Origin: Paenirhizobium selenitireducens ATCC BAA-1503 | GTDB taxonomy: Bacteria; Pseudomonadota; Alphaproteobacteria; Rhizobiales; Rhizobiaceae | Assembly (NCBI RefSeq): GCF_000518785.1 | Contig: NZ_JAEG01000009.1 | Location: 186,001 to 250,000, forward strand | Reading direction: 5' to 3' | Length of the DNA: 64,000 nt | Shown: in pieces, positions 30,332 to 56,150 of the stretch | Numbering within the stretch: the stretch's first letter is position 1 | How the letters are laid out: every line of letters begins with the position of its first letter | Made by a program: the position numbers and the translations under genes | The notes under the pieces: generated by a model | The model's database searches: none | What the model was told of the DNA's origin: nothing | Seen by the model: the letters and a program-made list of their open reading frames with translations, nothing else

Positions 30332-30382
30332 ACCCGGTCCCCCAACCCTCTCCTGACGACCATTTTTCGTGAACCCATTCTT

Positions 30383-30423: not shown

Positions 30424-30427
30424 GCCG

Positions 30428-32491: not shown

Positions 32492-32529
32492 GAAGTCATC
32501 CTTCCTGGATCGGTTTATTCAGTGCGGTC

Positions 32530-32551
32530 GGCGGGGCGCCATGGCCCCGCC
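32530..32551 (-). other. Stem-loop between paaE and paaZ
   Basis: A perfect 8-bp stem GGCGGGGC/GCCCCGCC (32530-32537 with 32544-32551) begins 10 bases after the paaE stop. There is no T-run, so it is more likely an mRNA-stability element than a terminator. Confidence 0.5.
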
Positions 32552-32561
32552 GCCTGGGAGG

Positions 32562-33638: not shown

Positions 33639-33658
33639 GCGTTATGTCCTCCGCATCC

Positions 33659-34180: not shown

Positions 34181-34190
34181 GGCATGACCC

Positions 34191-35251: not shown

Positions 35252-35281
35252 TGCTATTCCTCCCAAGTTCAGGTGACGAAG

Positions 35282-35302
35282 GGGAGCGGGTGCGCCGCTC
35301 CC
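35282..35302 (-). other. Stem-loop between paaA and paaB
   Basis: GGGAGCGG/CCGCTCCC (35282-35289 with 35295-35302) starts 12 bases after the paaA stop and lacks a T-run. Same placement as the hairpins after paaE, livK and others in this window. Confidence 0.5.
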
Positions 35303-35314
35303 GAATTGGATTGA

Positions 35315-36313: not shown

Positions 36314-36330
36314 GGCGGTTTCCTCCCTGC

Positions 36331-37536: not shown

Positions 37537-37588
37537 TGATCGACTCCTCCTCGAGCATCAGACGCGACCGGCTTGTCTCCAATTCGCC

Positions 37589-37602
37589 AACCGATCGGTC
37601 AA
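37589..37602. promoter_or_regulatory. TetR-type (PaaR-like) operator upstream of paaJ
   Basis: AACCGATCGGTCAA contains the perfect palindrome ACCGATCGGT. Read on the minus strand it is TTGACCGATCGGTT, close to TTGACCGTCCGGTCGG before paaG/paaN. It is about 55 bases upstream of paaJ, in the 172-base gap between paaX and paaJ, and so probably governs the paaJABCDEZ operon. Confidence 0.62.
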
Positions 37603-37708
37603 CTTATAGCGCCAAAACATCACACAGGAAAGCGATTTTTTCTTCATAGCGTGATGTTTGGACTGGCGGGTTCGATCTCACGAGAATTGTTCGTTTTCTT
37701 TCAGATAC

Positions 37709-38584: not shown

Positions 38585-39148
38585 CTTACCTCCCGATACC
38601 TGTCCGGCGGACACGCTCGCCCGTCCGGAAAATATTACAACATCGCGGCCGCAGGAGGTAGGGCCGTGACATATGAATGTCAAATCACGGGGCCGTCCGA
38701 CGGCTTGCCACACCTCCAGATTGGCCGCGGCACAACGACAGAAGGCAAAGATAGCCTGAGGCGTCGAGGCGATGATCCTCTGGTGCAGTTTCCGCCGCGG
38801 GGCCGGGAAATCGAACGCACGCACCGTGATTTCAACCCGTGCTGAAGGCCGATCGATGAAGATGCCGGCAACTGCGCCGAGCTTCGCCCGGCCGGGCCGA
38901 TCATGCCGCCCGGATGTTCGAACCGCTCAACGATGAGCGGTTCTTCGCTGATCCGGACGGCGCCGCACGCATTTATCCGGCATCGGCTTCAATCAAGCGG
39001 CTTGCGCGCCCTTGTCGCGAGCGATCCATCATAAGTGGTCACGCAACGCCTTTCACGGGCCTGAACGACGCGCTGCCTGCCGCATGGAATCGGGCGGCAG
39101 GTCGCACTGCTTGTGCATAGATGGCGGTACAGCTTAGCGCAAACGATC
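38585..39148. other. Gene-free region between paaX and the alcohol dehydrogenase
   Basis: About 560 bases with no ORF I can support on either strand. It should hold the paaX promoter. The one clear structure is a perfect 10-bp hairpin GAACCGCTCA/TGAGCGGTTC with an ACGA loop at 38920-38943, without a good T-run. Confidence 0.4.
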
Positions 39149-40273
39149 TCAGAACAGGATGACCTGCCGGATTGCCTCGCCGGATGCCAGACGCTCGAAG
39201 CCTTCGTTGATCTCGTCCAGCGTGATCCTGTGCGTCATCAGTTTCTCAATTGGAAGTTTTCCGGATTGCATCATCGCGGCAAAGCGCGGGATGTCGCGCA
39301 CCGGTACGCAGGAGCCGACATAGGAGCCCTTTAGCGTCTGCTCGCCCACGGTCAGCGAAACGGCCGGGATTACCAGCTCGGCCTTCGGATTGGGCAAGCC
39401 ACCCGTCACCGTGGTTCCGCCGCGCTTCGTGATGTCATAGGCGAATTTTAGTGCAGACGCTGCGCCCGCCAGTTCAACGGCCAGATCAACACCTCCGTGC
39501 GTGATCGACTTGACCTCGGCAATGGCATTCTCAACCGTCGGGTCGATCGCATGGGTGGCCCCGAGTTCAAGCGCCATGGCACGCTTGCTTTGCGAGGGGT
39601 CGACCGCAATGATCGTTTCGGCCCCCGCAGCGATAGCCCCGAGCAGGCCGGAAAGACCGACGCCTCCCAGTCCGATGACGGCACAGCTTTGCCCCATCTT
39701 CAGCTCGCCGGAATTGAGCACGGCCCCGACACCGGTCAGCACAGCGCAACCGAGCAGCGCTGCCTTGTCCAGGGGAATGGACTTGTCGATCTTCACGCAG
39801 GAATTCTCCGATACGACCGCATGGGTCGAGAAGGCGGACACGCCGATGTGATGGTTGACCGCTTCGCCCTTGTAGCGAAGGCGCCGCTCGCCGCAGATCA
39901 AGGTTCCCTTGGCCGCCGAGACCGCACCGGGCTCGCAAAGGGCGGGCCGGCCGGAGGCGCAGGGCACGCAGTGGCCGCAAGACGGCACGAAGACAAGCAC
40001 GACGTGATCGCCGGGGGCGAAGCGGGTCACACCCGGCCCCACCGCCTCGACAATGCCGGAGGCTTCATGACCCAGCGCCACCGGCATGTCGCGTGGCCGA
40101 TCGCCGTTGATCACCGAAAGATCAGAGTGGCAGAGCCCCGCTGCGGCCATCTTCACACGCAGTTCGCCGGCACCGGGTTCATCGAGATCCACCTCGACGA
40201 TTTCGAGCGGCCTGGTGTCTTGGTAGGGACGTCCTGCTCCCATCGATCTCAGAAGCGCAATCCTGGCTTTCAT
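39149..40273 (-). CDS. Zinc-dependent alcohol dehydrogenase
   Basis: A 374-residue medium-chain dehydrogenase. The catalytic zinc region is GLCHSDLSVINGD with GHEASGIVEAVG, the structural zinc Cys cluster is CGHCVPCASGRPALC near residues 97-111, and the NAD motif GLGGVGLSGLLGA lies near residue 200. It resembles class III/aryl-alcohol type enzymes. Last gene of the long minus-strand run, 27 bases after the symporter, so it probably oxidises an alcohol released in that pathway. Confidence 0.88.
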   Translation of the reverse strand: MKARIALLRSMGAGRPYQDTRPLEIVEVDLDEPGAGELRVKMAAAGLCHSDLSVINGDRPRDMPVALGHEASGIVEAVGPGVTRFAPGDHVVLVFVPSCGHCVPCASGRPALCEPGAVSAAKGTLICGERRLRYKGEAVNHHIGVSAFSTHAVVSENSCVKIDKSIPLDKAALLGCAVLTGVGAVLNSGELKMGQSCAVIGLGGVGLSGLLGAIAAGAETIIAVDPSQSKRAMALELGATHAIDPTVENAIAEVKSITHGGVDLAVELAGAASALKFAYDITKRGGTTVTGGLPNPKAELVIPAVSLTVGEQTLKGSYVGSCVPVRDIPRFAAMMQSGKLPIEKLMTHRITLDEINEGFERLASGEAIRQVILF

Positions 40274-40300: not shown

Positions 40301-42220
40301 TCAGTGACGTCCGAAGGACAGCGCGGTGACGACCGCTATGCTGAATCCGATGGCTATCGCGATCATGAAGGTGTTGCGCCGGCGGGCGCGTTCGTCCGCT
40401 GTCTGGACGGGCCTCAGACGGGGGCGCGGTGAATAGGCGGGTATGACCATGGCAAGCGGGCTTGCCATTTCCATCTTGTAGGAGAGGAACCAGACAAGGC
40501 CGAGCCCCGCGACCCACATCATCAGGCTCCAGCCCCACAGGGACGGCATTCCCAGCACCCACTGTCCATCCAGACCGACAAAGGCGAAATTGCCGAAGAC
40601 GAGGCCCGGACCAACCGCGAGAAACATCCAGGCAAGCGAGACGGACCACGCGGTGGAACGAAGCGCCCGCACGCGGGGGCTGCTGCGCAGTTGATCGAAC
40701 AGGAAGCGTCGTGCTTCCTCGCCCTCCTCGCCAAGGCCACGGCGCTGCGTAAAGGCCGACACGAGCAGCGTGACCGCAGCGTTGGCCGCAAAGCCCCAGG
40801 CGGCGGAATGGATGGTCCAGGGATTGCGGCCCCAGGGAAGGTCAAGACCAAAGGAGGACAGGACAGCGATGCCGAGCGGCTCTGTCAGCACCACGCCGGC
40901 AATGCCGAAACCGACGCCCGTGACCGCCCCAGGCCTGGTGATCCAGCGCAGCCAGGTCATGCCAAGCAGCGGGGTCCAGAGCTGAAAGGCCAGCGGTAGG
41001 GCCAGCGATGCAAGGAGCGAAAGCGCGACGGGCGTGAGAACCTGCATGAACACGCTGATCAAGGCCAGGATGCCGATCACCACACGCGTGATGGTGACCG
41101 TATCGCGACGCGACAGGGCATTGTGGAATATGGGTTTGTAGACATGCCGCACGAGTGACTCGCCGGCGGAAAGCAGGGCAAGCCCGGACATCAGCTGCAC
41201 ACCGGCCAGCAGGCCGATGAACAGCCACGCGGAGAACCAGGGCGAGAGGCCGGCGAGCAGGCCCGCGACACCGCGCGCGGGATCGATCAGTTCTCCAGCA
41301 CCGATGATGGCCATGCAGAGCGCCATCACCGCGCCGAACGCTCCTGCCATCACCCAGGTCTGCCCGGCTGCAAACCCACGCGGGCTGGAGGTTGAAAGCA
41401 CCACCTTCAGCGCCATCGGACTGGCCTGCAGCCCCATCAGGGCGAAGGCGAATGAGAGGTTTGCCAGTGCCGTGCCTTCGTGACCGGCCGCGGCTTCCTT
41501 GCCGACGCCCGCGGTGAACTGGACGATGCCTGCCACGACGAAACGGCTGGCCGTGGCGGGGTCTGCGGCAATCTTGGCAAGCCCTGCGTTGAGCGCCGCA
41601 AAGCCTCCGATGCCGATCAGCGAGAAACCTGCAAGGCCGATTATGGCCGCGACCGCAAACAGGGCCTGGAGCGCGCCCAGATACCCGACGGCTCGCATGC
41701 CGCCGATGGCTACATAGGCGAACAGCATGAGGCCGATGAGCGCCGCGGCCATTTCATGGGATACCGCACCCCCTCCCAGCAACTGCACCAGACGGGACAG
41801 GGCCGACATCTGCAAGCCGGCAAAGGCGACGGCAAAAAGGACCGCAACGATAGCTGAAAAGGCCGTCAGGAACTCCGATTGCCAATAGGCGCGCAGCAAT
41901 TCTGCAAGCGAGGAGACCCGCAAGCGCTGGCCGAGCAGCCAGATGCGTTTGAAAAAGACGACGCCCGGCAGAGCAAGGGCGATGCCCGCCTGCAACAGGA
42001 CCGCAAGGCCGAAACCGTGCCTGCCAATCTCCTCCGTACCGGCCAGAGCGGCCCAGCCGGAAATGCTGGCCCCGGCAAGAACGAGCGCCGAGATCCAGGG
42101 GGAAAGGCCATGCGCGGCCGAGAAGAAGGTCTGATAATCGCCATTTGCCCGCGCGCTGAGACGTGCCCAGTAGAGCGTGACGACGGCGTAGAACAATGCG
42201 TAGAGCGGTAGCCAGATCAC
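40301..42220 (-). CDS. Sodium:solute symporter-family transporter
   Basis: A 639-residue membrane protein with about 13-14 hydrophobic segments, of the SSS (PutP-like) family: ASISGWAALAGTEEIGRHG near residue 50 and AGVGKEAAAGHEGTALANLS near residue 235 match the sodium-symporter core. The start is a GTG that overlaps the TGA of the small membrane-protein gene, so the two are translationally coupled, as in SSS systems with a small partner (for example DUF4212 or YhdT types). Solute unknown. Confidence 0.85.
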   Translation of the reverse strand: MIWLPLYALFYAVVTLYWARLSARANGDYQTFFSAAHGLSPWISALVLAGASISGWAALAGTEEIGRHGFGLAVLLQAGIALALPGVVFFKRIWLLGQRLRVSSLAELLRAYWQSEFLTAFSAIVAVLFAVAFAGLQMSALSRLVQLLGGGAVSHEMAAALIGLMLFAYVAIGGMRAVGYLGALQALFAVAAIIGLAGFSLIGIGGFAALNAGLAKIAADPATASRFVVAGIVQFTAGVGKEAAAGHEGTALANLSFAFALMGLQASPMALKVVLSTSSPRGFAAGQTWVMAGAFGAVMALCMAIIGAGELIDPARGVAGLLAGLSPWFSAWLFIGLLAGVQLMSGLALLSAGESLVRHVYKPIFHNALSRRDTVTITRVVIGILALISVFMQVLTPVALSLLASLALPLAFQLWTPLLGMTWLRWITRPGAVTGVGFGIAGVVLTEPLGIAVLSSFGLDLPWGRNPWTIHSAAWGFAANAAVTLLVSAFTQRRGLGEEGEEARRFLFDQLRSSPRVRALRSTAWSVSLAWMFLAVGPGLVFGNFAFVGLDGQWVLGMPSLWGWSLMMWVAGLGLVWFLSYKMEMASPLAMVIPAYSPRPRLRPVQTADERARRRNTFMIAIAIGFSIAVVTALSFGRH

Positions 42221-42645
42221 AGGCCTTCCTCCCGCTTGTCTTTGGGCCTTACGTGGAAACGCGAAAACGCGCCGCGCAATCCGTGGCGGGTGAAGAGATA
42301 GGCAAGGAAACCGAGGGCCAGGACGCCGAACAGGGTAAGCCCGGAATAGTAATCCGTCGCGGTCATCGTGCTGCCGGTGGCGGAGAGCACAAAGACCAGA
42401 CCCAGCAACCCGTATGCACCGAGCCCCAGGGAGGTTTCGCCGGCGGAAAAGCCGGCATTGAACACGCCGTTGACGATGATGTGGGCAACAAAGGCCACGA
42501 CGATAATGGAGACGCCGGAGGCCGAAACAAGCCAGATGTCGGTCTTGATGCCTTCGAGAAACACCCCGAGCCCCAGAAAGCCGAGCACGGCCCATATCGC
42601 GAAGATCAGGATGGAGCGTTCTATACTGGAGCCGGATGTATTCAT
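42217..42645 (-). CDS. Small membrane protein, putative symporter partner
   Basis: A 142-residue protein with about four transmembrane segments (residues about 10-30, 36-60, 70-92 and 98-118) and a basic C-terminal tail. I do not recognise a named family. The 4-base overlap with the symporter gene suggests a subunit or assembly partner. The start MNTSGSSIERSI is preferred over an ATG 13 codons earlier that covers the 3' hairpin of the flotillin gene. Confidence 0.7.
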   Translation of the reverse strand: MNTSGSSIERSILIFAIWAVLGFLGLGVFLEGIKTDIWLVSASGVSIIVVAFVAHIIVNGVFNAGFSAGETSLGLGAYGLLGLVFVLSATGSTMTATDYYSGLTLFGVLALGFLAYLFTRHGLRGAFSRFHVRPKDKREEGL

Positions 42646-42672
42646 GGCACGTCTTCCTGCGAGCGGAGGGAC

Positions 42673-42719: not shown

Positions 42720-44381
42720 CTAGTCCTTGCCGGCTGGTGCGGCAGCGGACGGTTCGGTGTAGACGATCTTCGAAAGATCGCTCAGCGTGTGCGGCCTGTG
42801 GATGGTATCGGCAGACAACCCGATTTCACCGAGAAGCGTGTCGACGAAGGGGGCCTGGGTGCGATAGCGCAGCGCCGAACTGACGACCTGTTCGGCAAGG
42901 TTACCCTCGCGCGGCGCGCCGCCGTCGGGGCCTGCGCCGAGCTGGCCGGAACCGCCATATCCGCCCGAAAGGCCGGGAAGTCCTTCGACATGCACGATCT
43001 TGATGCCGTCGATCTTCTCCATCGGCTTGACGCTTTCGCGGATGATGGCCGGCAGGTTTTCCACCAGCGCCTTGTGCAGGGCGGAGCGGCGGCTGGCATC
43101 GGAACGCATGTTTTCGGCCGCGTTCAGCTTTTCCCTCCCTTCGGCTTCCACCTTCATGCGACCTTCGAGCGCGGCAACGGCTATGCGATCGGCATCGGCC
43201 CGATCTTGGGCGGCTGCCTTCTCAGCTTCGGCAAGGATGCGCACCCGCACGCCTTCCGACTCGGCCTGACGTTCAGCCTCGATGATCTCGATGGCCTTCT
43301 GGCGATTGGCGATCTCGGTATCCCTGATCGTCTGGACGTTTTCCTGCGCCGCCACCATGGCCGCACGCGCGCCTTCTGCCTGGGTCTGCGCCTCGGAGCG
43401 CTCCTTTGACTTCAGCGATACCGCGATCTCGCGGGTCTGTTCCTCGATCTGGATGACTTCGCGGCGCCGAATTTCCATCATCTCCACTTCGCGTTCCATC
43501 TCGATGCGGATGCGCTCGACGGCTTCGCGTTCGCGCAGCTTTATCGATTCGATCTCGCGCTCGCGCTGGGCGTTCTCGGCGGCGATTTCAGATTTCTTCG
43601 ACGCCCGCTCGATAGAGACCTGGGCCTCGTGCGACAGGCGGGCATATTCGCTGTCACGCTCGATCTCCAGGCTGCGTTTTTCGGCTTCGAGGTTCTTGGC
43701 CCGGATGGCGACGGCCGTATCCTTCTCGATATCGTTGCGCTTCTTTTTGCGGCTTTCGATCTGCTCGGTCAGGTGCGTCAACCCTTCGGCGTCGAAGGCG
43801 TTGGACGGGTCGAAGAGCTTGATGTCCGTCTGGTCGAGCGAAGTGAGCGAGACGGATTCGAGTTCGAGACCATCGAGGGCGAGGCTCTCGGCCACTTCCT
43901 GCTTCACCTCCTTCACGAAGGCCTGGCGGTTTTCGTGAATGTGCTCGAGCGTCATCTTGGCAGCAGCGCCACCCATGGCATCGACGAAGCGGCCCTGGAT
44001 CAGATCCTTCAGCTGCTCGGCGTTCATGGTGCGGTTGCCAAGACTGCGCGCGGCGGTAGCCACGGCATCGGTATTGGGCGCGACCCGGACGTAGAACTCC
44101 ACCGTCAACTCGACGCGCATGCGATCCTTGGTGATCAGCGATTTCTCGCGGGCACGGGTCACCTCCAGCCGCAGGGTGTTCATGTTGACTTCCGTGAAGT
44201 CGTGAAGGATCGGCAACACCAGAGCGCCGCCGCCCATGACGACCTTTTCGCCACCGAAGCCAGTGCGCACGAAGCTCACGTCCTTCGTGGAGCGGCGGTA
44301 GAGCCAGTGCAGCAGATAGGCGGCGACAGCAATGACGATGGCCGCCAGGATGATGATGGCAATGACGTCTGCACCCTTCAT
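42720..44381 (-). CDS. Flotillin-family (SPFH) membrane scaffold protein
   Basis: A 553-residue protein: one N-terminal membrane segment (residues about 5-28), an SPFH/PHB domain (about 30-205, with FGGEKVVMGGGALVLPILH), then a very long charged coiled coil (about 210-450) rich in Glu, Arg and Ala, and a Gly-rich C-terminal linker (GGYGGSGQLGAG) before a short tail. This matches the YqiK/flotillin type that forms detergent-resistant membrane platforms. It sits between the rhodopsin-like gene and the symporter pair, suggesting it organises those membrane proteins. Confidence 0.88.
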   Translation of the reverse strand: MKGADVIAIIILAAIVIAVAAYLLHWLYRRSTKDVSFVRTGFGGEKVVMGGGALVLPILHDFTEVNMNTLRLEVTRAREKSLITKDRMRVELTVEFYVRVAPNTDAVATAARSLGNRTMNAEQLKDLIQGRFVDAMGGAAAKMTLEHIHENRQAFVKEVKQEVAESLALDGLELESVSLTSLDQTDIKLFDPSNAFDAEGLTHLTEQIESRKKKRNDIEKDTAVAIRAKNLEAEKRSLEIERDSEYARLSHEAQVSIERASKKSEIAAENAQREREIESIKLREREAVERIRIEMEREVEMMEIRRREVIQIEEQTREIAVSLKSKERSEAQTQAEGARAAMVAAQENVQTIRDTEIANRQKAIEIIEAERQAESEGVRVRILAEAEKAAAQDRADADRIAVAALEGRMKVEAEGREKLNAAENMRSDASRRSALHKALVENLPAIIRESVKPMEKIDGIKIVHVEGLPGLSGGYGGSGQLGAGPDGGAPREGNLAEQVVSSALRYRTQAPFVDTLLGEIGLSADTIHRPHTLSDLSKIVYTEPSAAAPAGKD

Positions 44382-44429: not shown

Positions 44430-45137
44430 TCACGCATGCGCGTTCTCCTCGGTGACGAGAATGGCCGTCGTCAGGACCGCGACGCCAAAGGCCATTCGGT
44501 TGAGTATATCGGCCAGGTTGTAGGCCACCGACAGGCTGCCATCATCGGTCAAGCCGGCGAAAGCGGTCAGGAAATTGCCCAGCGGATAGATGGCCCAGCC
44601 GATCGTGACGATCAGCCTCAGCCAGAAATAGCCGCGGCGCAGGTGGTCACCCGTGGAAGTGCGCACCACATCGTCCATGTGGCCGAAGAAGAACTCTCCC
44701 AGCAGGTAGAGCCAGAAGACCAGCCCGATGAGGAAGGAGAGCGTGGGATGCATGATCTGCGCCTCGCCGAGATAGCGGACGAAGACCATCAGCACGGAAA
44801 CCACCAGGAGGCGCCAGAACAATCCGGCTGACAGCTTGCCGGCCGTGCGAGCAAGGAAGAACAGCGCGACCACCTGCAACGGCATGGACACCAGCCAGCC
44901 CTCATAGTGGTAGACAACCGGCACGCCGTGGCCGGCAAGCCAGACATCGCGCGCCTCGTGGACAGCGCCTATGCCGACAAGCGCGGCGATGGCGCAGAGT
45001 GATACGGGTAGCCGCCAGTTGCGGCCGACCCAGGCCGTGCCAATCAGCAAAAGTACAGTGGTCGCGGCCAGGCCGAACAGGGCGATCGAGAAGCTCGCCG
45101 CAGTCAGGTCGGAAGTCTGATAGACCGCCATCGTCAT
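44430..45137 (-). CDS. Proteorhodopsin-family seven-helix protein lacking the retinal lysine
   Basis: A 235-residue seven-helix protein. It aligns with proteorhodopsin through YLGEA (helix D), IGLVFWLYLLGEFF (helix E), IGWAIYPLG (helix F) and YNLADILNRMAFG (helix G). The Schiff-base lysine of helix G (Lys231 in proteorhodopsin) is Arg214 (codon CGA at 44496-44498), while the neighbouring Asp (Asp210) is kept. In helix C, YHYEGWLVSMPLQVVA, the Arg, proton acceptor Asp and donor Glu are His77, Gly80 and Ala91. His60 matches proteorhodopsin His75. It cannot form a normal retinal Schiff base or pump protons in the standard way. No retinal-synthesis gene is nearby. Role unknown; lysine-less rhodopsins are known elsewhere. 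Confidence 0.85.
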   Translation of the reverse strand: MTMAVYQTSDLTAASFSIALFGLAATTVLLLIGTAWVGRNWRLPVSLCAIAALVGIGAVHEARDVWLAGHGVPVVYHYEGWLVSMPLQVVALFFLARTAGKLSAGLFWRLLVVSVLMVFVRYLGEAQIMHPTLSFLIGLVFWLYLLGEFFFGHMDDVVRTSTGDHLRRGYFWLRLIVTIGWAIYPLGNFLTAFAGLTDDGSLSVAYNLADILNRMAFGVAVLTTAILVTEENAHA

Positions 45138-45179
45138 TGTCTCCCTTCAAGGAAATCGTCGTGTCGCATTGCGTCCTCC

Positions 45180-46541
45180 TCAGATCTGCGTCCGGATGTG
45201 CGGCGACCGTGCATAGAGCGCCACCATGGGAAGAATGAGCAGGCCGAAGATGAACTGCTGCCATTTGAAATCGAGCCCGATGCCCACCAGGAAGCTCGAA
45301 AGCACCTGGAGCACGAGCACGCCGATTACGGTGAAACCGTATCCGCCGGCGCCGCCGAGCAACGAGGTGCCCCCGACCACGACTGCGGCAAGTGTGAGGA
45401 AAAGATACTGGTCGCCCACCCCGATGAAGCCGCCGCCGGACCAGCCAAGCAGCAGACCGCCGGTGAGCGCGGCAAAGAAGCCGGAGAGCGCGTACATGAT
45501 CACCCAGTAGCGCATTTCCGAAATCATCACGCGGCTCGCCGAGGTGCGGTTCACACCCAGCGCATAGAGGTAGCGGCCATAGACGGTCGTTCTCAGCCCG
45601 ATGATGAGAATGAGGGAAATCAGCGCCCAGATGGCGATTACCGGCGGGAAGGGCAGACCGAAGGTCGAGCCGTTCATGGCCGAGATATTGGAGAGCCACG
45701 GGGGAACCGTGCCGAACACGTTGCCGGAATAGGCAGAACCGATCGACGTGACGATCTGGACCCCGCCGGAGATGGCAAAGCCGGTGCCGAGCGTGACGAT
45801 GAGTGCCTGACCCTGAAGACGATAACTCAGCAGCCCATTGATCACGCCGAAAATCAGGCCGGTGAGCAGCACGATCATCGTGGCAAGCCATGGCGGAACG
45901 CCAAGGCCGATCAGGTAGAGCAGGCCGACATTGGCACCGCCGATGATGAAGGGAATGGAAAGGTCAAGCCCGCCCAGCAGCGCGACCAGCGTCTGGCCAA
46001 TCGATGCGATGCCAAGGAAGGAGGCGAAAAGCAGCATCGACTTGATGTTGTTACCGGAGGCAAACCCCTCGATGTTCATCGATCCCACGGAAAACAGGCC
46101 GGCGAGCACCATGATGCCGATGAAGGCTGACCGGTTCTGCTGGAATTGCCGACCGAGCGTCCGCGTCAGGACAAGGATGGCGAGCAGGATGGCGAGCGAG
46201 ATGACATTCCAGATGCTGAAAAAGCCTTCGATCGACAAGGACAGCAAAAGGAAGGCGGCAAGCACCAGTGCCAGGCCGATGAGCGGCCAGCGATACTGCA
46301 CCCATGCCTGGCGGAGCGGACCCGGTCCGTCCGGCATGACAGCTTCTCCTTCGAGGAACTGCCCGATGATATAGCGCCACGCCCAGACGAAAAGCGCGAG
46401 CGTCGCGATTGCTGACAGGATGACGACCTGTACCGCCATGCCCTGGGCAAAGCCGAAGCCAGCCCCCAGTCCTGCCAGGATAGTGCCGATGACCAGGCCG
46501 AGGATACGCGCGGGGAGGCTGATCTGTTGCAGCTTTTCCAT
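45180..46541 (-). CDS. Sugar/autoinducer-type ABC transporter permease
   Basis: A 453-residue inner-membrane permease of the BPD_transp_2 (RbsC) family. The family motif GLDLSIPFIIGGANVGLLY is near residue 195, YGRYLYALGVNRTSASRVM near residue 325, and GGTSLLGGAGGYGFTVIG near residue 395. It is longer than RbsC because of an extra N-terminal helical region (about 120 residues). Start and stop overlap by TGATG with the companion permease. Confidence 0.9.
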   Translation of the reverse strand: MEKLQQISLPARILGLVIGTILAGLGAGFGFAQGMAVQVVILSAIATLALFVWAWRYIIGQFLEGEAVMPDGPGPLRQAWVQYRWPLIGLALVLAAFLLLSLSIEGFFSIWNVISLAILLAILVLTRTLGRQFQQNRSAFIGIMVLAGLFSVGSMNIEGFASGNNIKSMLLFASFLGIASIGQTLVALLGGLDLSIPFIIGGANVGLLYLIGLGVPPWLATMIVLLTGLIFGVINGLLSYRLQGQALIVTLGTGFAISGGVQIVTSIGSAYSGNVFGTVPPWLSNISAMNGSTFGLPFPPVIAIWALISLILIIGLRTTVYGRYLYALGVNRTSASRVMISEMRYWVIMYALSGFFAALTGGLLLGWSGGGFIGVGDQYLFLTLAAVVVGGTSLLGGAGGYGFTVIGVLVLQVLSSFLVGIGLDFKWQQFIFGLLILPMVALYARSPHIRTQI

Positions 46542-47932
46542 CAGTCTACGGCCTCCGTGTCACGGGAACTGCTATTTTCATGAATGACATAGGTGCCGCC
46601 CAGAACCAGGGCCCCGATGATCACCGCAACGGCCGGACCGATGCTCTTGCGGCTCGACTGGCTGAGCGCGATTCTGAGGAACACGGCGATGATGACGAGA
46701 AGGATGGCAAAGAAGGCCAGCGGCGCCGCTTCCAGCAGCAATGCGAGCGTTTCGGGCGACAGGGTGGAGATTTCGAGCGGACCGGTCAGAGCGGCCTGCA
46801 TGTCCATCGGCCCGGGCACGTAGGCGGGCGCCGCGCCAAGGCTCGCATAATCGAAGGTCGCGTGCAGGATGATGCCGAGCACCACCACCGAAAGGGCGAC
46901 GAAGTAAAGCAGCGGCGAGAAGTTGCGGATGTAGCGCTGGATCACCGGAATGAGCAGCGTCAGCAACAGCGAGATGACCAGGATTGCGCCGTAGGCAAGG
47001 TTGGTCACGAAGCTCTGCACGGCTCCGAAGTTATAGGTCGAGAGGACATAGGTGATCATGTAGAGGTTAAGCGCGCCGAGCGCCGAGCCGAATACGCCGC
47101 CGCGTCCACCTGCAAGGGACGCCCCCCCGAGTACCAGCGCAGTCACCGCAATCAGCGTGTAGGTCGTGCCCTGCGACGGGTCCCCGGACGAGATCAGCGC
47201 CGTGAAACAGATCGAGGCCAGTCCGGCAAAGGCGCCGGAGATGAGGTGGGCGCCGATGCGCACCACGGTGATCGGCACGCCGGAGGTGTAGGCCGCGCGC
47301 TCGTCCGAGCCCATCAGCCGCAGATGCGTATAGAAGGCGGTGGTGGTGAACAGCAGCCAGGCAACCGTCGCCAGAATCAGGATGATCAGCACCGGCGAGA
47401 AGATCGAGGTGCCATAGCCCCATTCGGCCATGAAGGACGGCGCCATCCCGCCTGGGCGTGGCAAGATGACCAGGTTGATGCCTGACAGCGCGAGATAGCC
47501 GGACAACGAGACAATGATCGGCTGCACGCGGACATAAATGACGATCAGCGCGAAAATCAGCTGGTAGGCAGCGCCGACAGCCATGCAGTACAGGAAGACC
47601 GGAATGGGATTTTCCAGCATGCCGGCGGCCGTCAGTTGGATCATCGTGACGTTGATGAAACCGATCAGCGGGCCAACTGACAGATCGACCGTGCCGCGGC
47701 CGGAAATGGTCGATGCCATCAGCGCATAGGTGGCAAGGATCAGCGGTGTGACCACGATGATCGCTGCCCCGATGCCGGAGGCCGTCATCAGGGTTGGCGT
47801 ACGCAGCACCGCGATGGACAGCAGGGCAAAGAACAGCGTGATCGGCATCAACAGGTAAGGATTGGACCGTGCCCCCTGCAAGTCGGCTTTTGCCGCTGCC
47901 TGCGGCGATGTCTCGGTAACGGGAAGGCTCAT
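46541..47932 (-). CDS. Sugar/autoinducer-type ABC transporter permease, partner subunit
   Basis: A 463-residue permease of the same family as its neighbour. STISGRGTVDLSVGPLIGF near residue 75 and VLGGASLAGGRGGVFGSALG near residue 260 are the BPD_transp_2 landmarks. The C terminus carries an extra pair of helices not usual in RbsC. Its gene overlaps the ATPase gene by 4 bases and the other permease by 3. Confidence 0.9.
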   Translation of the reverse strand: MSLPVTETSPQAAAKADLQGARSNPYLLMPITLFFALLSIAVLRTPTLMTASGIGAAIIVVTPLILATYALMASTISGRGTVDLSVGPLIGFINVTMIQLTAAGMLENPIPVFLYCMAVGAAYQLIFALIVIYVRVQPIIVSLSGYLALSGINLVILPRPGGMAPSFMAEWGYGTSIFSPVLIILILATVAWLLFTTTAFYTHLRLMGSDERAAYTSGVPITVVRIGAHLISGAFAGLASICFTALISSGDPSQGTTYTLIAVTALVLGGASLAGGRGGVFGSALGALNLYMITYVLSTYNFGAVQSFVTNLAYGAILVISLLLTLLIPVIQRYIRNFSPLLYFVALSVVVLGIILHATFDYASLGAAPAYVPGPMDMQAALTGPLEISTLSPETLALLLEAAPLAFFAILLVIIAVFLRIALSQSSRKSIGPAVAVIIGALVLGGTYVIHENSSSRDTEAVD

Positions 47933-49770
47933 TGCCGCCCTCCTTCGATCCGTGCGCCATTCTCCCCGAACTCGACGATCCTGATCGGCTTGACGGATGG
48001 CGCAGCGTTCGGCCGAAGCCCTGGCCTGCCCGGCGAGACCGCCACGGCATCGTCCGCAGACCGTGGGGCAACCGTTGCCAGCACCTTGGGATTGAGATGA
48101 TCGGGGACATTTACACGGGCACTCAGACCGTCCTCGAGAACCGGAGCGCTGCCCGATCCAGCCGATGCGGGCGCGCCGGGACGAAGACCGTACGAAGATG
48201 TCAGCCCCTGGCCGCCGGTATGGCCGAACATCGCTTCCAGCACACGCTTCGGCTCCAGTCCCTGTCCGTCGAAGGCATCGAAGGGCGCGCCATCGCGGAA
48301 CACGATGACTCGTGTGGCAAAGCCGAGGAATTCCTCGATTTCGGACGAGAGATAGATGACCCCCCTGCCCTCTTCGGCGTAGGTGCGCAAGTGCTTGTAG
48401 AGCTCGGCCTTGGCGCCGACATCGATCCCGCGTGCCGGGTCATTGAGGATGATCACGTCGGGCCGCATGGCAAAGCCGCGCCCGATCAGCACCTTCTGCT
48501 GATTGCCGCCCGAAAGGGAGGTAATGCGATCTTCCTTCACGCCAAACTTGATCAGCAGATTTTCAGCTTCCCTTTTGAAAAGAACGGAAAGCGTCGAGCG
48601 GTCGATGAAGCCGAGAATGCCGCCACGTTTCTTCTCGCGATACAGCGGCATCACCAGGTTTTCGAAGATGGAAAGCGATGCGAAGATGCCCTCGCGCTTG
48701 CGGTCGCCGGAGACATAGGCGACCTTTCCCGCGACGGCTTCGGCAAGGGTGCGCACGGGCGACCAGGCACCATCACGGCCCGCCACCTGCACCAGTCCCT
48801 CGCTGGCAGCCATCACGCCAGCCAGGATGCGAACAAAGGCATCCTGGCCCTGCCCGTCGAGACCGGCGACACCGACAACCTCGCCGCGGCGCAGGTCGAA
48901 ATCGAAGGGCTTCGAACCGGGCCAGACGACCAGTTTTCTCGCCTTCATGGCGCGTTCTGCCGTCTTCGGCACCGGCACTGCCGCCTGGCCATTCTTGTCC
49001 GAGCGATCCTCGCCGGTCATCAACCGGAGCAGGTTCTTCTCGGTAATGTCGGCCTTTTCCAGCACGCCGACATCGCGACCGTCACGAAACACGGTGGCAC
49101 GATCGGAAATGCGGACAAGCTCGGCAATGCGATGGGTCACGATCAGGATCGTCGTTCCGCGGTCGCGCAAGGCGCGCATTCTGGAGAACAGCCGCTCGGT
49201 GGAGTCAAAATCAAGGGCCGCGGAGCTCTCGTCCAGGATCAGGATCTTTGGCTCGGAAAGAAGCGCGCGGGCAATCGTGATCCACTGCTTGAGCCCGAGC
49301 GGCAGCGTGCCGACCACGGCATGGGGGTCCACCGGCTCGCCGGACAGCTCTTCCATCAGCTCGGCCGCACGCGCCACCTTCCGCTCCTGCGAGAGCGTCT
49401 TGGTAAACAGCCGGTCCGATCCCATGAAAATGTTGTCGACAACCGAGCTTTCATCCGCGACCAGCACTTCCTGGTAAACGGTCGATATCCCGAGCGCCCG
49501 GCTCTCGGCCGGTGTGGAGGGCGTTTCTCCGAGGATGGAAACTGTTCCACTGTCTACGGGCAGTATGCCCGAGACGACCTTGGCCATGGTGCTCTTGCCG
49601 CAACCGTTTCCGCCAACGATGGCATGTATCTCACCAGCCCGGGCAGAAAAGGAAGCGCCATCGAGCGCCCGGGTCGGCCCGAAATACTTTTTCACGCCGC
49701 GCACCAGGATAGTCTCCCGGCCGGCAGGCTCTGCGATATCTGGGACGGAGAACGTCATGGATCTACCCAT
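47929..49770 (-). CDS. Sugar-type ABC transporter double ATPase (RbsA-like) with C-terminal tail
   Basis: A 613-residue protein with two ABC cassettes. First: Walker A GGNGCGKSTMAKV near residue 54, degenerate signature LPLGLKQ, Walker B ILILDESSAALD. Second: altered P-loop GLDGQGQDAF, signature LSGGNQQKVLIGRG, and ILNDPARGIDVG where the usual DEP is NDP, so the second site is probably inactive for hydrolysis, common for the RbsA type. After about residue 525 a Pro/Ser/Gly-rich tail of some 85 residues ends IRIVEFGENGARIEGG, which resembles the N terminus of the nearby lactonase-like protein. A second ATG four codons on is a possible start. Confidence 0.9.
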   Translation of the reverse strand: MGRSMTFSVPDIAEPAGRETILVRGVKKYFGPTRALDGASFSARAGEIHAIVGGNGCGKSTMAKVVSGILPVDSGTVSILGETPSTPAESRALGISTVYQEVLVADESSVVDNIFMGSDRLFTKTLSQERKVARAAELMEELSGEPVDPHAVVGTLPLGLKQWITIARALLSEPKILILDESSAALDFDSTERLFSRMRALRDRGTTILIVTHRIAELVRISDRATVFRDGRDVGVLEKADITEKNLLRLMTGEDRSDKNGQAAVPVPKTAERAMKARKLVVWPGSKPFDFDLRRGEVVGVAGLDGQGQDAFVRILAGVMAASEGLVQVAGRDGAWSPVRTLAEAVAGKVAYVSGDRKREGIFASLSIFENLVMPLYREKKRGGILGFIDRSTLSVLFKREAENLLIKFGVKEDRITSLSGGNQQKVLIGRGFAMRPDVIILNDPARGIDVGAKAELYKHLRTYAEEGRGVIYLSSEIEEFLGFATRVIVFRDGAPFDAFDGQGLEPKRVLEAMFGHTGGQGLTSSYGLRPGAPASAGSGSAPVLEDGLSARVNVPDHLNPKVLATVAPRSADDAVAVSPGRPGLRPNAAPSVKPIRIVEFGENGARIEGGRQ

Positions 49771-49867: not shown

Positions 49868-51034
49868 TCAGGGCTTGTAGGCGCGAGGATCGGCCGGCCG
49901 CAGGAAGAAGTCGTCCAGGTAGGACGGATCGTAACCCCAGCCCTTGGCGCCGACCTTGAGCCATTCGGCGCTGTCGAGATTGCAGTTCTCGTCCATTACC
50001 TTGGTGAGATCGTCATAGGTGAGCTTCACCGGATCGACGAGGACCGACTGAATCTTCGGGCCCTGGCCTTGAAGCGTGCGCATCATGATGTGCCACATCA
50101 GCTGGATATCGTCGGCTGCAGGCCACAGCTGGTAGGAGGCGTTGATGTATTCCGGGTTCTTGCGCCAGTAGCACAGCGCACCGAGTTCCCCCCCGATCGC
50201 CACCGGAATTTCGCCACGGCCAGCCTGCTGAACGGCGCGCAGAACACCCATTTCAGCGGCGGACTGCACGACGATGCCGTCCAGCTTGCCGGGATTGGTG
50301 GCAAGCCATTTTTGCACTTCGCCCTGGGCCACCTGGTCGGTCCACATGCCGGCGACCGAGCCGACGACCTTGATGTCCGGCGACGATGCAAGACCGGCGA
50401 GAACGCCACGATTCTGGCTGTCGGAGCCCGAGGTGCCGGGAATGCCCTCGACGACGAGCACGTTGCCCTTGCCACCCAGCTGGTCAACCATGGCCTTGCC
50501 GATCTCGTAGCCGCCAACCTGATAGTTTACCGAGGAATTGATGGCGTATTCGGAGGTCAGGTAACCGGTCATCGAGAAGACCGGCACGCCCTTGTCGGCG
50601 GCATACTTGACCGACGCATTGAGGGCCGTCGGGTTGGAGCAGCACAGGATGATGGCATCGGCGCCCTGATCCACCAGCTGGCGGATCTGCTGGATCTGCG
50701 TGGAGTCGTTCAGGTTGGACTGCGTAACGATCACTTCAGAAAGAAGTCCGAGCTTCTGCCACTCCGGCACGATGACCTTCTGCAGCTCGTCCATGGCAGC
50801 CGCACGCCACGTATTGCCGGCATAGGAGGAGGCATAGCCGATCTTCCACGGCGGGCCCTTCTTCGCCTTGAAATCCCTCCACTTGCTCGGCCCGATGGGC
50901 TGCATCGGATCGAGCATTTCCTTGTTGTAGAGCCTCTTGGCCACATCGGGTTTCAACTCGTCGACGCCCTCGGCAAAGGCTCCGGTAGCGGCAACAGCGA
51001 ACATCGCGGCCGTGCAGAGTATTCTCGTTAGCAT
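49868..51034 (-). CDS. Sugar/autoinducer-type ABC transporter solute-binding protein
   Basis: A 388-residue periplasmic protein (Peripla_BP_4) with signal peptide MLTRILCTAAMFAVAATGA cut near FA-E. It has an extra N-terminal segment of about 50 residues before WKIGYASSYAGNTWRAAAM, then DQGADAIILCCSNPTALN near residue 120. The start has GGAGGAGAG seven bases upstream. With two permeases and the double ATPase it forms a full importer; the ligand is unknown and could be a lactone, glycoside or sugar acid in view of the hydrolases before it. Confidence 0.9.
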   Translation of the reverse strand: MLTRILCTAAMFAVAATGAFAEGVDELKPDVAKRLYNKEMLDPMQPIGPSKWRDFKAKKGPPWKIGYASSYAGNTWRAAAMDELQKVIVPEWQKLGLLSEVIVTQSNLNDSTQIQQIRQLVDQGADAIILCCSNPTALNASVKYAADKGVPVFSMTGYLTSEYAINSSVNYQVGGYEIGKAMVDQLGGKGNVLVVEGIPGTSGSDSQNRGVLAGLASSPDIKVVGSVAGMWTDQVAQGEVQKWLATNPGKLDGIVVQSAAEMGVLRAVQQAGRGEIPVAIGGELGALCYWRKNPEYINASYQLWPAADDIQLMWHIMMRTLQGQGPKIQSVLVDPVKLTYDDLTKVMDENCNLDSAEWLKVGAKGWGYDPSYLDDFFLRPADPRAYKP

Positions 51035-51079
51035 TTCAACTCTCCTCCTAGTTGCAGTCTTGATCATTCAGTCATGCGT

Positions 51080-52015
51080 TTAGTCGTAGAAATCCTGCGG
51101 GGACTTGCGGAAACCGGGCCACGTCACCGGATCGTGGCCGGTGACCACCATGGCATTGGTGTCGTGCGCAATGCGCCGCAGCTTGGCCACGGAATCGGCG
51201 GCCTGTGCCGACGATACGACGAGCCCCGGAAGGGCCCTGTTCTCCCAGTGGTCCACCGTATAGGCCGCATCGATGGTCAACAGGATCGGGCCGCTCTCCG
51301 GCAGTGTGATCAGGAAGGACTGGTGCCCCGGCGAATGGCCCGGCGTGAAGATCATCCGCACCGTCCCGTCGCCGAACAGGTCGTAATTGTCGGTGAATTC
51401 GCCCCCCAGGAACTTCCAGTTCAGGCCCGGTCGATCGAAATCGGCGCGGATATAGGCGCCGGCCGAAAACCAGTGCGGCTTGAAGGCGTAGTCATATTCA
51501 ATGCGCTGGACGATGTGCTGCGCTTTCGGGAAGCGCCCGATGGCGCCTGTATGATCGAGATGCAGATGCGACTGCACGACGTAACGAACATCCTGCGGAT
51601 TGATGTCGATCATCTTCAACTGATCGACGCAGTTCTCCGAGACCGCCATCACGGGATCATAGGCATCCACGACCGAGCCCCAGTGGCCGCGCTTGTCGAT
51701 GGCGGTTTCCACCGCATTGCCGCCATCGATAACGACAAGACCCTGCGGATGCCTGATCAGGAACCACGGCACGGGAATTTCGAAATCATCCTCGCCCTGG
51801 TTCATCTTGATGTACTTGGTCTTGGTCTTCAGGGTTCCCGTCTGGAACATGTGCAATTCGATCCCCGAAGACTTGCGCCGCGAGCGCGACGCCTCCTTCG
51901 GGGCCGGGGAGAAACTGGGGCGCGGTGCCAGCGACGAGGTGTTGGTTGGCCGCGAGGGGGACGAGGCATCGGTTTCGATGCGGCGCCCCTTGTCGTCGAA
52001 TTCAATGATCTTCAT
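51080..52015 (-). CDS. Metallo-beta-lactamase-fold hydrolase, AHL-lactonase-like
   Basis: A 311-residue dinuclear-metal hydrolase. The motif HLHLDHTGAIG at residues 150-160 (His150, His152, Asp154, His155), the third His in FTPGHSPGHQS near residue 225 and the bridging Asp in LTIDAAY near residue 245 are all present. The layout follows the AttM/AiiA lactonase group. The first 50 residues are a Ser/Pro/Arg-rich extension starting MKIIEFDDKGRRIETD. It may open a lactone brought in by the adjacent importer; a quorum-signal substrate is possible but not shown. Confidence 0.82.
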   Translation of the reverse strand: MKIIEFDDKGRRIETDASSPSRPTNTSSLAPRPSFSPAPKEASRSRRKSSGIELHMFQTGTLKTKTKYIKMNQGEDDFEIPVPWFLIRHPQGLVVIDGGNAVETAIDKRGHWGSVVDAYDPVMAVSENCVDQLKMIDINPQDVRYVVQSHLHLDHTGAIGRFPKAQHIVQRIEYDYAFKPHWFSAGAYIRADFDRPGLNWKFLGGEFTDNYDLFGDGTVRMIFTPGHSPGHQSFLITLPESGPILLTIDAAYTVDHWENRALPGLVVSSAQAADSVAKLRRIAHDTNAMVVTGHDPVTWPGFRKSPQDFYD

Positions 52016-52922: not shown

Positions 52923-53312
52923 TCAGACCGGCACGCCGACCTTGCGAAGCAGCTCGAACTGGACGGTGAAGTTGCGCAGATTCTGGAACATCGCGAGAAG
53001 ATTGCCTTCGATCTTCAGGTCGCGACGAAAGCTCGCCGACCAGATGCCGTGATACATCGGCTCCGGAACAGGCTTGGCGAACTCACGCCATGTGGCGGGG
53101 CTCGCTCTCAATGCAAAATCATAGGAATCAAGTGGTTGCGGATCCGTGTTGATGCGGTAGACCTTACCGTCCACCATCTCCACGATCACCTTCTGGACCC
53201 CCATGTCCCACAGATAGCTGCACGTGAAATACCGCGCCATGGCACCGATCGTCGGGTCCCGGTCCGAGGCCTCGCCGAAACGGACCGCCCAGTCGCGCAC
53301 GCTCATGACCAT
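52923..53312 (-). CDS. Small SCP2-like protein
   Basis: A 129-residue protein. The strand and loop pattern VIVEMVDGKVYR, then FALRASPATWREFAKP and LKIEGNLLAMFQNLR, resembles the sterol-carrier-protein-2 fold, a hydrophobic-ligand binding domain. The similarity is a judgement from pattern only. It is the first gene of the long minus-strand run, divergent from the IclR gene. Two ATGs two codons apart can start it; the longer frame upstream has no support. Confidence 0.55.
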   Translation of the reverse strand: MVMSVRDWAVRFGEASDRDPTIGAMARYFTCSYLWDMGVQKVIVEMVDGKVYRINTDPQPLDSYDFALRASPATWREFAKPVPEPMYHGIWSASFRRDLKIEGNLLAMFQNLRNFTVQFELLRKVGVPV

Positions 53313-53487: not shown

Positions 53488-54312
53488 ATGGCCACCAGCG
53501 ACAGCAAGCAGCAACAGACGCCTGCACTGGAAAAGGGCGCCCGCATCCTTGATCTCGTTGCGAGATCAAGGGGCTTTCTCAGCCTCTCGGATCTCTCGCG
53601 GGAGTTGAAGATCGCCCCATCCAGCGTCCACTCGCTCTGCCACACGCTGGTCGGGCTGGAGCTGCTCATCAGGCGCACCGACCAGACATTCCAGCTCGGG
53701 CCGCATGTGATGCGCTGGTCGAACGCCTTCACCCTGCAATCCGACGTGGCCACCGAGTTTGCCGCGATCTGGGATCACGAACCGGCCCTTCCCCGCGCAA
53801 CATTCACGCTGACGGTCCAAGACGGCACCGAAGTGGTCTATATCGCGGCACGCAATTGGGAGGGGTTCCGCACTGCGATCGAGTTTCGCGTGGGCATGCG
53901 CCTGCCCGCCGCCTTCACGGCGACGGGGAAAGCGTTTCTCAGCCACATGAGCGACCATGAAATCCGCCGCCTCTTCGCCGATGGCCTGCCGGCGGCAAGA
54001 ACCGTCCGGAGCGTGCAGAATGTGGACGCGCTGCTGCTGGAATTGCGCGACATCCGCCGCGATGGCTACAGCTGCGACGAAGAGCAGATTGCTGACGGCA
54101 TGGTGTGTTTCGGAGCGACCGTGCTGGACGCACAGCACCGGCCGATCGCCGGAGTTGCCGTCAGTCTCGCTTCTGATTCCGACGCCATGGCCGATCGTGC
54201 ATCGATCATTGCAAACGTGCTGGGGATGGCGGCCCGCCTCTCCCATCGCATGGGCGCCGATATCGCCCGGTCCGGCGAGACGACCGCCAGGCTGCGCCGG
54301 GATCCATTCTAA
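53488..54312 (+). CDS. IclR-family transcriptional regulator
   Basis: A 274-residue regulator: N-terminal winged HTH (residues about 10-75; LSDLSRELKIAPSSVHSLCH) and C-terminal IclR effector domain (about 90-260). It is divergent from the 12-gene operon and likely controls it. It shares the strong phrase LIRR.DQTF.LGPH...WSNAF with the second IclR gene at 55365-56150, so the two are paralogues. Confidence 0.92.
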   Translation: MATSDSKQQQTPALEKGARILDLVARSRGFLSLSDLSRELKIAPSSVHSLCHTLVGLELLIRRTDQTFQLGPHVMRWSNAFTLQSDVATEFAAIWDHEPALPRATFTLTVQDGTEVVYIAARNWEGFRTAIEFRVGMRLPAAFTATGKAFLSHMSDHEIRRLFADGLPAARTVRSVQNVDALLLELRDIRRDGYSCDEEQIADGMVCFGATVLDAQHRPIAGVAVSLASDSDAMADRASIIANVLGMAARLSHRMGADIARSGETTARLRRDPF

Positions 54313-55364: not shown

Positions 55365-56150
55365 TCAGCCGACCACCTCGGCTCCAAGCCGCTGCGAAAG
55401 CCGGGATGCAACACTGCATACATTGGCGGAGAAAGCTGCACGGTCATCCGCCGACAGATCTTCGGAATCCACGCTGATCAAGACCGCAGCAACCGGGCGG
55501 TTGAGCGAGTTGACGACTGCGGCGGCGAAATTCGTGACGCCACGCTGACATTGGCCAATCTCGACAGCAACGCCCTCGATCCTGATCTGGCGAAGCTCGG
55601 AACCGAGCGCTTCTACCCCCGCCACCGAATTTTCCGTAAGTGCCTCGGGGAAGCGCGCATTGAAGACCCTTTGGACCTCGTGATCTGGCCAACGCGCCAG
55701 GATCGCCTTGCCGGCAGCGCAGAAGGCGGCAGGCAAACGCATTCCGGGCCTGACGGCAAAGCGCGCCAGGGCGTTGGTCTGGCGGGCGGCGATGAACACC
55801 ACGTCGACGTCGTCCAGAATACACAGGGAGACGACGGAATCGCTGACCTCCCCGGATTGATCCCAAATCGCCGCGAACTCCACCGCGATATCGGTCTGCC
55901 GCTCGAAAGCGTTGGACCATTTCACGATATGCGGACCCAGAACGAAAGTCTGGTCCGGACGGCGGATGAGCAAGCCGAGCTGCGCCAGGGTGGTGCAAAG
56001 CCCATGCACGGTACTCTTGGGAAGCGCGGTTGCACGCGCGAGGTCGGAAACGGTGGGATACCGTTTGGCACCGGAAACGATGTCCAGGATGATAGACGCC
56101 CTTTCCACCGCAGGAACCAGCTTCTGCCGCAGGGTCTCCTCTTCGCCCAA
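55365..56150 (-). CDS. IclR-family transcriptional regulator (paralogue)
   Basis: A 261-residue regulator with HTH (VSDLARATALPKSTVHGLC) and IclR effector domain. It starts at a TTG with GGGAGG eight bases upstream. It is convergent with the hydrolase gene and divergent from the AraC gene. It is clearly related to the IclR protein at 53488-54312, sharing LIRR.DQTF.LGPH and EFAAIWD, so one probably arose by duplication. Confidence 0.9.
   Translation of the reverse strand: MGEEETLRQKLVPAVERASIILDIVSGAKRYPTVSDLARATALPKSTVHGLCTTLAQLGLLIRRPDQTFVLGPHIVKWSNAFERQTDIAVEFAAIWDQSGEVSDSVVSLCILDDVDVVFIAARQTNALARFAVRPGMRLPAAFCAAGKAILARWPDHEVQRVFNARFPEALTENSVAGVEALGSELRQIRIEGVAVEIGQCQRGVTNFAAAVVNSLNRPVAAVLISVDSEDLSADDRAAFSANVCSVASRLSQRLGAEVVG

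Follow-up and report, generated by a model that had tools for sequence, protein, structure and literature searches.

The locus lies in a window of 64,000 nucleotides, which is the whole stretch of DNA analysed here, from Paenirhizobium selenitireducens ATCC BAA-1503 (contig NZ_JAEG01000009.1, positions 186,001 to 250,000). On the minus strand of the window runs an ABC importer operon, in which a gene for a rhodopsin-fold protein stands between a permease gene and a flotillin gene. The operon and its surroundings consist of the following features, given in window coordinates:

55365..56150, minus strand: IclR-family regulator; nearest solved structure BlcR (3mq0, E 5.1e-38; next 9.7e-17)
53488..54312, plus strand: IclR-family regulator; nearest solved structure BlcR (3mq0, E 6.6e-46; next 3.9e-17)
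52923..53312, minus strand: small conserved protein of 129 amino acids
52044..52892, minus strand: alpha/beta hydrolase
51080..52015, minus strand: AttM/BlcC-family lactonase (NF045700, 431 bits against a cut-off of 390)
49868..51067, minus strand: periplasmic substrate-binding protein (Peripla_BP_4)
47929..49770, minus strand: sugar-type (CUT2) ABC ATPase
46541..47932, minus strand: ABC permease PERM1, with a C-terminal membrane extension
45180..46541, minus strand: ABC permease PERM2, with an N-terminal helical extension of about 130 residues
44430..45137, minus strand: lysine-less flotillin-associated rhodopsin, a 235-codon frame without internal stop
42720..44381, minus strand: flotillin with Band_7 and Flot domains (PF15975, E 6.5e-34; PF01145, E 2.4e-17), 48 bases past the rhodopsin stop
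42217..42648, minus strand: small membrane protein, conserved in the operon
40301..42208 (start approximate), minus strand: sodium:solute-symporter-like membrane protein
39149..40273, minus strand: zinc-type alcohol dehydrogenase; in some relatives an iron-type enzyme stands here

The order of binding protein, ATPase, two permeases, rhodopsin, flotillin, small membrane protein and symporter was found in 23 named relatives, read as far as the contigs reach (those of L008 and L017 are cut). The lactonase leads the operon in the relatives with uncut contigs, except in L023 and L024, which have it inverted and at a separate place. The hydrolase (79%), the small protein (66-67%), both permeases, the ATPase, the binding protein and the symporter are common to the window and to two genomes of 1.4 Mb that hold a second rhodopsin. 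The gene for the 129-residue protein is likely the "sterol carrier" of the published marine cluster; that name is unconfirmed here, because Pfam reported no domain in the protein from the window, L047 or L154. The initial annotation rightly placed the rhodopsin gene among transport and hydrolase genes but overlooked the flotillin encoded by the gene that follows on the same strand. Near the operon, at 59054-63316 on the plus strand, are a nosR-like gene (788 bits, cut-off 1000) and a nosZ nitrous-oxide reductase gene above cut-off. On the other side of the operon, at 28323-38824, lie phenylacetate degradation genes, with paaK and paaA above and paaX below cut-off.

The rhodopsin frame is intact, as the initial annotation had stated without naming a strand. 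Its true start is probably Met3, at window position 45131, since the first ATG nearly abuts the ribosome site and reads ATA in a number of relatives (L002, L003, L006-L008); the site, GGGAGA, lies 8 bases ahead of Met3 and just 2 ahead of the first ATG. The promoter-side overlap earlier called normal was described inexactly, because the preceding coding gene, PERM2, does not overlap and ends 42 bases upstream. This gap between the PERM2 stop and the rhodopsin start (45138-45179, minus strand) holds a leader frame of 11 codons with its own ribosome-site-like sequence, and the stop of the leader touches the rhodopsin start region. The same gap was inspected by eye in L002-L022; among relatives the leader frame is open in most and absent in some (e.g. 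L023), and it possibly serves translational coupling. The rhodopsin gene is under purifying selection, with a dN/dS of 0.10-0.24 against all eight relatives compared, which agrees with the earlier view of a maintained gene rather than a decaying one. The ratio is above that of flotillin and that of PERM2 in 8 of 8 pairs, yet inside the range of the operon.

The encoded protein matches Pfam Bac_rhodopsin (E 2.3e-19), and the nearest chains in a PDB search were PsFAR (9r21, E 1e-36) and then proteorhodopsins. NCBIfam gave no family for the rhodopsin itself, the best match being at E 0.88, below cut-off. The AlphaFold model shows seven helices at pLDDT 90.9 and pTM 0.88; it was built on a 47-row alignment that omits, among others, L037, which has a stop codon, and L105, which has unread bases. 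Against PsFAR (9r21/9r23), the closest solved structure at 32% identity, the model gives TM 0.94, rmsd 1.4 and Z 31.7-31.9. A match to another seven-helix family was also sought, and all rows listed by Pfam and by two fold searches were microbial rhodopsins. In a tree of 60 rows, Lys-, Arg- and Leu-type flotillin-associated rhodopsins (FArhodopsins) form one clade with PsFAR (100/95) inside the proteorhodopsin family. The lysine-less types make up a single clade within it (100/100), so that one loss of lysine suffices in the tree sample. Support for the Arg group by itself is lower (68/76), and for the Leu group the tree program gave a long-branch warning. The protein is therefore a lysine-less FArhodopsin, with the fold, the clade, the missing lysine and the adjacent flotillin all observed. 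The broader label Rh-noK, invoked earlier, conceals this more fitting one. Because the helix G lysine is missing, the protein is presumably retinal-free.

The tree omits four near-copies (L083, L085, L087, L088), two rows of another family (L095, L102) and three that failed the profile match (L094, L096, L103). Together, L094, L095, L096, L102 and L103, from one genus of the same order (genomes G100, G159, G226, G245 and G064), encode another rhodopsin-domain protein, in frames of 370-394 residues whose C-terminal tail is long. The 3.6 kb around these five loci gave no match to the window's flotillin. In L095 and L102, the two alignable rows, the helix G lysine column holds Phe and Leu, and this type may be a separate lysine-less group.

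Key residues were compared in 31 Arg-type rows, 4 Leu-type rows, 19 pump-type proteorhodopsin rows and 9 lysine-bearing FArhodopsin rows. The Arg-type rows are the window and 30 relatives, namely all those examined at 53% identity or above (at least 53%): 23 named loci and 7 from a draw of genomes of the order. Alignment upholds the four replacements read earlier from the sequence, i.e. helix G Lys to Arg214, helix C Arg to His77, the acceptor Asp to Gly80 and the donor Glu to Ala91, as well as the retention of helix G Asp210. The helix B histidine, said to remain as His60, does not: the proteorhodopsin histidine (19 of 19 rows), whose column we take to be His75, aligns to Ala58, and residue 60 is His in just 5 of the 31 Arg-type rows and thus not conserved. 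A substitute lysine in helix G was looked for and is absent; the sole lysine of the protein is Lys101 in the C-D loop, and therefore no other helix G lysine can take over.

Free variation of Arg214 between close relatives was not seen. It is Arg in 30 of 30 relatives at 53% identity or above and, in a draw from the family, in 23 of 23 other relatives at 63% or above, which may overlap the 30. Gly80 and Arg121, like Arg214, are invariant in the 31 Arg-type rows, and Trp81, Trp181, Tyr184 and Pro185 are kept in all of them. Position 77 is His in 28, Gln in 1, Pro in 1 and unread in 1; position 91 is Ala in 29 and Thr in 2; position 188 is Asn in 29, Ser in 1 and unread in 1; and position 210 is Asp in 29 and Glu in 2. 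In the family draw, all 24 loci at 63% or above, window included, read His77-Gly80-Ala91-Arg121-Asn188-Asp210-Arg214. More distant relatives at 39-44% identity have Leu214 (4 of 4), as do all four loci at 39-43% in the family draw, which also have Arg77 and Ala80, so that Arg is not universal among lysine-less relatives. Across both types, 17 columns split the 35 lysine-less from the 28 lysine-bearing rows without overlap. The pocket aromatics Trp81, Trp181 and Tyr184 as well as Arg121 are present in 35 of the 35 lysine-less rows, and residue 61 is acidic in 34. Position 121, presumably that of bacteriorhodopsin Gly122 near the ring end of retinal, is Gly in proteorhodopsins, Glu in PsFAR and Arg here. 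The old retinal pocket thus keeps Trp81, Trp181 and Tyr184 and has lost its Asp counterion (Gly80), with Arg121 at the ring end and Arg214 at the Schiff-base end. In PsFAR, by contrast, lysine and Asp are both retained. Two changes, H84V/E120G, are named in the PDB title of 9r23, and the second of them is at the Glu in the Arg121 position; no publication on the PsFAR structure was found in the open literature.

The window genome, of 5 Mb and 99.82% complete, carries one Bac_rhodopsin gene, and no second rhodopsin was found in it. No match to Blh (PF15461) or to an RPE65-type oxygenase (PF03055) was found there either. A first search for Blh was positive nowhere, and it was rerun with genomes that bear pumps serving as control. 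The order draw contains 29 genomes with a rhodopsin, out of 297; each has a single one, and 14 of the 29 are flotillin-associated. Blh was found in none of the 14, compared with 5 of 10 control genomes with another, lysine-bearing rhodopsin (10 of the other 15). An RPE65-type gene occurs in 1 of the 14 (G092). Apart from G553 and G630, such genes occur in 4 of 27 genomes (G480, G573, G650 and the genome of L006), and one Blh fragment was found in the genome of L024. With a carotenoid-oxygenase homologue in this minority and a Blh fragment in one, retinal is possible in some FArhodopsin genomes. G553 and G630, of 1.4 Mb each, hold two rhodopsins and Blh. A single rhodopsin per genome was found in 23 of 23 named relatives (L002-L024), as well as in the genome of the Kiloniellaceae locus L047 and in the lysine-bearing G480, G573 and G650. 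Lysine-bearing FArhodopsins were seen in L150, L151, L152 and L047, each the single rhodopsin of a genome of 3.8-4.5 Mb; RPE65-type genes are present in 3 of these 4 genomes, and no match to Blh was found in them.

The lysine column was first read in 32 of 80 loci, comprising all 23 at 53% identity or above and 9 of the other 57. The named relatives have genomes of 2.9-8.0 Mb and include Gellertiella hungarica as well as Rhizobium, Ensifer and Hoeflea strains. The family draw found the gene in 28 of 394 genomes, and in each of the 28 it has the permease and flotillin as neighbours. Its distribution is patchy, the gene being absent from all 5 other genomes listed of the window's genus. The operon was also seen on plasmids, in L156 (Pararhizobium gei, typed conjugative), L157 (Martelella sp. 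AD-3) and L159 (Hoeflea sp. IMCC20628), where the gene is annotated "bacteriorhodopsin". There were six plasmid matches, of which four regions were read; a Shinella match, at 37% identity, has a record without annotation.

The tie between the rhodopsin and the importer was examined with PERM2 as bait in draws from the order (297 genomes), the class (385) and the phylum (398). PERM2 matches were found in 17 genomes of the order draw. Thirteen of them are long, carrying the N-terminal extension, and rhodopsin and flotillin are adjacent in all 13; the other four are short permeases with neither gene nearby, and no rhodopsin was found anywhere in the genomes of those four loci. The class draw gave 7 matches in 385, i.e. 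the window genome, 5 further long permeases, each with rhodopsin and flotillin, and a short one (G541). The contig of G541 ends just past the short permease, and in its genome the only rhodopsin signal is a weak piece at E 7.4e-4, with nothing above cut-off. The 4 matches in the phylum draw are all in genomes already counted. In total, rhodopsin and flotillin accompany 18 of 18 long-permease loci, and either gene accompanies none of the 4 readable short ones; these counts are of non-independent events, because the loci are related by descent. Furthermore, the C-terminal extension of PERM1 is absent too from the four short loci aligned out of five, in a permease alignment made without L129. The PERM2 extension is predicted to be helical (helices 9-32 and 37-62, pLDDT near 80), and the model as a whole, at pLDDT 65, was too weak to be entered in the fold search. 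In this sample the permease extensions occur only together with rhodopsin and flotillin, and the relation is shown as co-occurrence. As five related short-permease importers were found without rhodopsin, this ABC type can do without it.

The cargo cannot be read from the importer itself, because the NCBIfam sugar equivalogs are all far below their cut-offs. The neighbouring genes resemble the blcABC operon (attKLM) of Agrobacterium, which serves gamma-butyrolactone use and is repressed by BlcR (PMC5924552). Like that system, as described there, the operon has an AttM/BlcC-type lactonase, and its regulators resemble BlcR; some relatives further hold an iron alcohol dehydrogenase and a succinate-semialdehyde dehydrogenase (SSADH). 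The operon here differs in adding an ABC importer, a hydrolase, a flotillin, a symporter and the rhodopsin-fold protein, and in having a zinc-type dehydrogenase in the window. In NCBIfam, all matches of the two IclR genes are below cut-off, the best being BhcR. All three annotated plasmid regions (Pararhizobium gei, Martelella sp. AD-3 and Hoeflea sp. IMCC20628) carry the iron alcohol dehydrogenase, one of them (Martelella) carries SSADH, and L134 has both, with TIGR01780 above cut-off; the iron enzymes fall below the 4-hydroxybutyrate-dehydrogenase cut-off. The blc-like interpretation depends largely on relatives, since beside the window operon there is the zinc-type enzyme and no semialdehyde dehydrogenase was identified. 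Arg- and Lys-type loci with the alpha/beta hydrolase, the two 1.4-Mb genomes included, show 79-97% identity in it (L014 over 211 residues only, L143 as a 28-residue piece). Its identity drops to 44% in the Leu-type loci in which it was detected, three in number, and to 39-40% next to three of the short importers. Rhodopsin identity, compared between Arg and Lys types, goes down to about 30%, so that the cargo pathway stays while the light chemistry goes.

Based on these findings, we propose that the protein works independently of light, as a rhodopsin-fold subunit of an importer that is scaffolded by flotillin and takes up lactone or hydroxy-acid nutrients, a proposal with about an even chance of being correct, in which the physical link and the ligand are what we infer. 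The non-light function suggested earlier from the operon stands as probable. The protein would be an extra membrane subunit of the co-encoded ABC importer, working in the dark. It would be docked by the added permease helices, and the assembly would be enclosed by flotillin in an SPFH ring or cage, by analogy with stomatin, which is reported to surround aquaporin-1 and urea transporter B (UT-B) (PMC12407830). Judged by gene content, the importer probably takes up a lactone, ester or hydroxy acid of the gamma-butyrolactone or 4-hydroxybutyrate type. Breakdown of this cargo, under BlcR-like control, would fall to the AttM lactonase, the alpha/beta hydrolase and the dehydrogenases. The pocket may be either plugged by its own side chains or occupied by a non-covalent carboxylate ligand, in the way that retinal-free proteo-opsin is reported to bind decanoate, there through its lysine (PMC11322631). 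An Arg-bound ligand cannot be general, because the Leu-type relatives are without Arg214. Contact among rhodopsin, permeases and flotillin is hypothetical, and joint inheritance of the operon would look similar. The faster evolution of the rhodopsin, relative to flotillin and PERM2 in 8 of 8 pairs, also counts against the proposal, as do the short-permease importers without rhodopsin and the low confidence of the permease model. A more detailed form of the proposal is rather improbable: within the flotillin-enclosed complex an amphipathic carboxylate or lactone from the membrane would be held between Arg214 and Arg121 and would be passed to the helix-extended permeases or used to gate them, and the change of Lys to Arg together with the loss of Asp would mark a switch from covalent retinal to a salt-bridged ligand.

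The fold could instead act as a chemosensor, binding a lactone, hydroxy acid or fatty-acid-like ligand in the former retinal pocket and reporting it to flotillin or the importer, of which it would form no structural part. The kept aromatics, the newly fixed Arg121 and the acidic residue 61 of the lysine-less rows would suit a binding pocket, as would the decanoate of proteo-opsin, and non-light sensing has been proposed for haloarchaeal opsin homologues (PMC4915679). However, no transducer gene was recognised among the annotated operon genes, the Leu-type relatives lack a charged anchor at position 214, and the ligand is hypothetical; a sensor is thus possible but unlikely. Somewhat lower in probability is a scaffold or chaperone, i.e. 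a ligand-free protein that fills space in the membrane and either gives order to the flotillin domain or aids the folding of other membrane proteins. It would fit the flotillin found adjacent in all loci read that reach it, and fungal lysine-less opsins have been described as chaperone-like and as acting on the plasma-membrane proton ATPase. Such a role leaves unexplained, however, why the protein's presence tracks the extended permeases and why the Arg group shows no variation at the internal positions 80, 121 and 214.

A protein that is still a light receptor, through non-covalent or scavenged retinal or another pigment, is very improbable. The Trp/Tyr walls of the pocket and the carotenoid-oxygenase homologues in a minority of FArhodopsin genomes speak for it, but the lysine and the Asp counterion are gone, an Arg occupies the ring-end position, and no Blh or RPE65-family gene was found in the window genome. 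Scarcely credible here is a helper of a proteorhodopsin pump, the role proposed for marine FArhodopsins, whose genomes are reported always to hold a pump. The two 1.4-Mb genomes with a second rhodopsin and Blh would fit it, but no second rhodopsin was found in the window genome, in the 23 named relatives or in the four lysine-bearing FArhodopsin genomes of 3.8-4.5 Mb; with the rhodopsin alone and no pump found in these genomes, the idea is contradicted for this lineage. A decaying proteorhodopsin copy, which would explain the loss of every pumping residue named in the initial annotation, was rejected as next to impossible in view of the purifying selection and of Arg214, Gly80 and Arg121 being kept in all Arg-type rows.

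FArhodopsins were described from marine genomes and freshwater metagenomes by Haro-Moreno et al. 2023 (PMC10308929), the sources being aquatic bacteria known from single-cell genomes and metagenomes. In their account the marine proteins keep the lysine, most freshwater ones are without it and have Gln, Thr, Leu or Arg instead, and flotillin is present in every long-enough FArhodopsin contig. The authors count the lysine-less freshwater sequences as FArhodopsins, and the DTT/DTL/DNI motif characterises the marine group; here the motif is absent and Gly80-Ser84-Ala91 is found. A proteorhodopsin is co-resident in all their marine FArhodopsin genomes, and for the freshwater genomes they could not tell. 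Because freshwater Arg variants are thus published, a lysine-less FArhodopsin, even one with Arg, was already known. The present protein falls in the clade of the solved PsFAR and has, like them, a same-strand flotillin next to it, and a hydrolase, a permease and a symporter are also reported in the marine cluster. It differs in being the lone rhodopsin of a 5-Mb genome with named relatives, and in a full ABC importer and blc-like genes tied to the presence of the rhodopsin.

Two other groups can be likened to it by description. The xanthorhodopsin-type Rh-noK (Yamauchi et al. 2019, via PMC10308929 and PMC7714340), which stands outside the tree, is likewise a lysine-less microbial rhodopsin; as described, it lies in tandem with a pump gene, unlike the present one. 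The haloarchaeal opsin homologues (Becker et al. 2016, PMC4915679) are also lysine-less, are expressed there and have a proposed non-light role, but they belong to other hosts, and the abstract names no flotillin or importer. Within the open literature, which leaves subscription papers and most preprints outside its scope, no paper was found that joins such a rhodopsin to an ABC transporter in rhizobia.

In conclusion, the gene is real, conserved and not ordinary, and its product is a variant of a published group. What is new is Arg214, kept in 30 of 30 relatives under purifying selection, the lone occurrence of the rhodopsin, its tie to long permeases and its blc-like operon. A lysine-less, lone FArhodopsin in named isolates argues against the pump-helper idea for this branch. 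Since the protein is linked with a single kind of importer, one whose permeases are extended, and with a single likely catabolic pathway, its role becomes testable in culturable bacteria.
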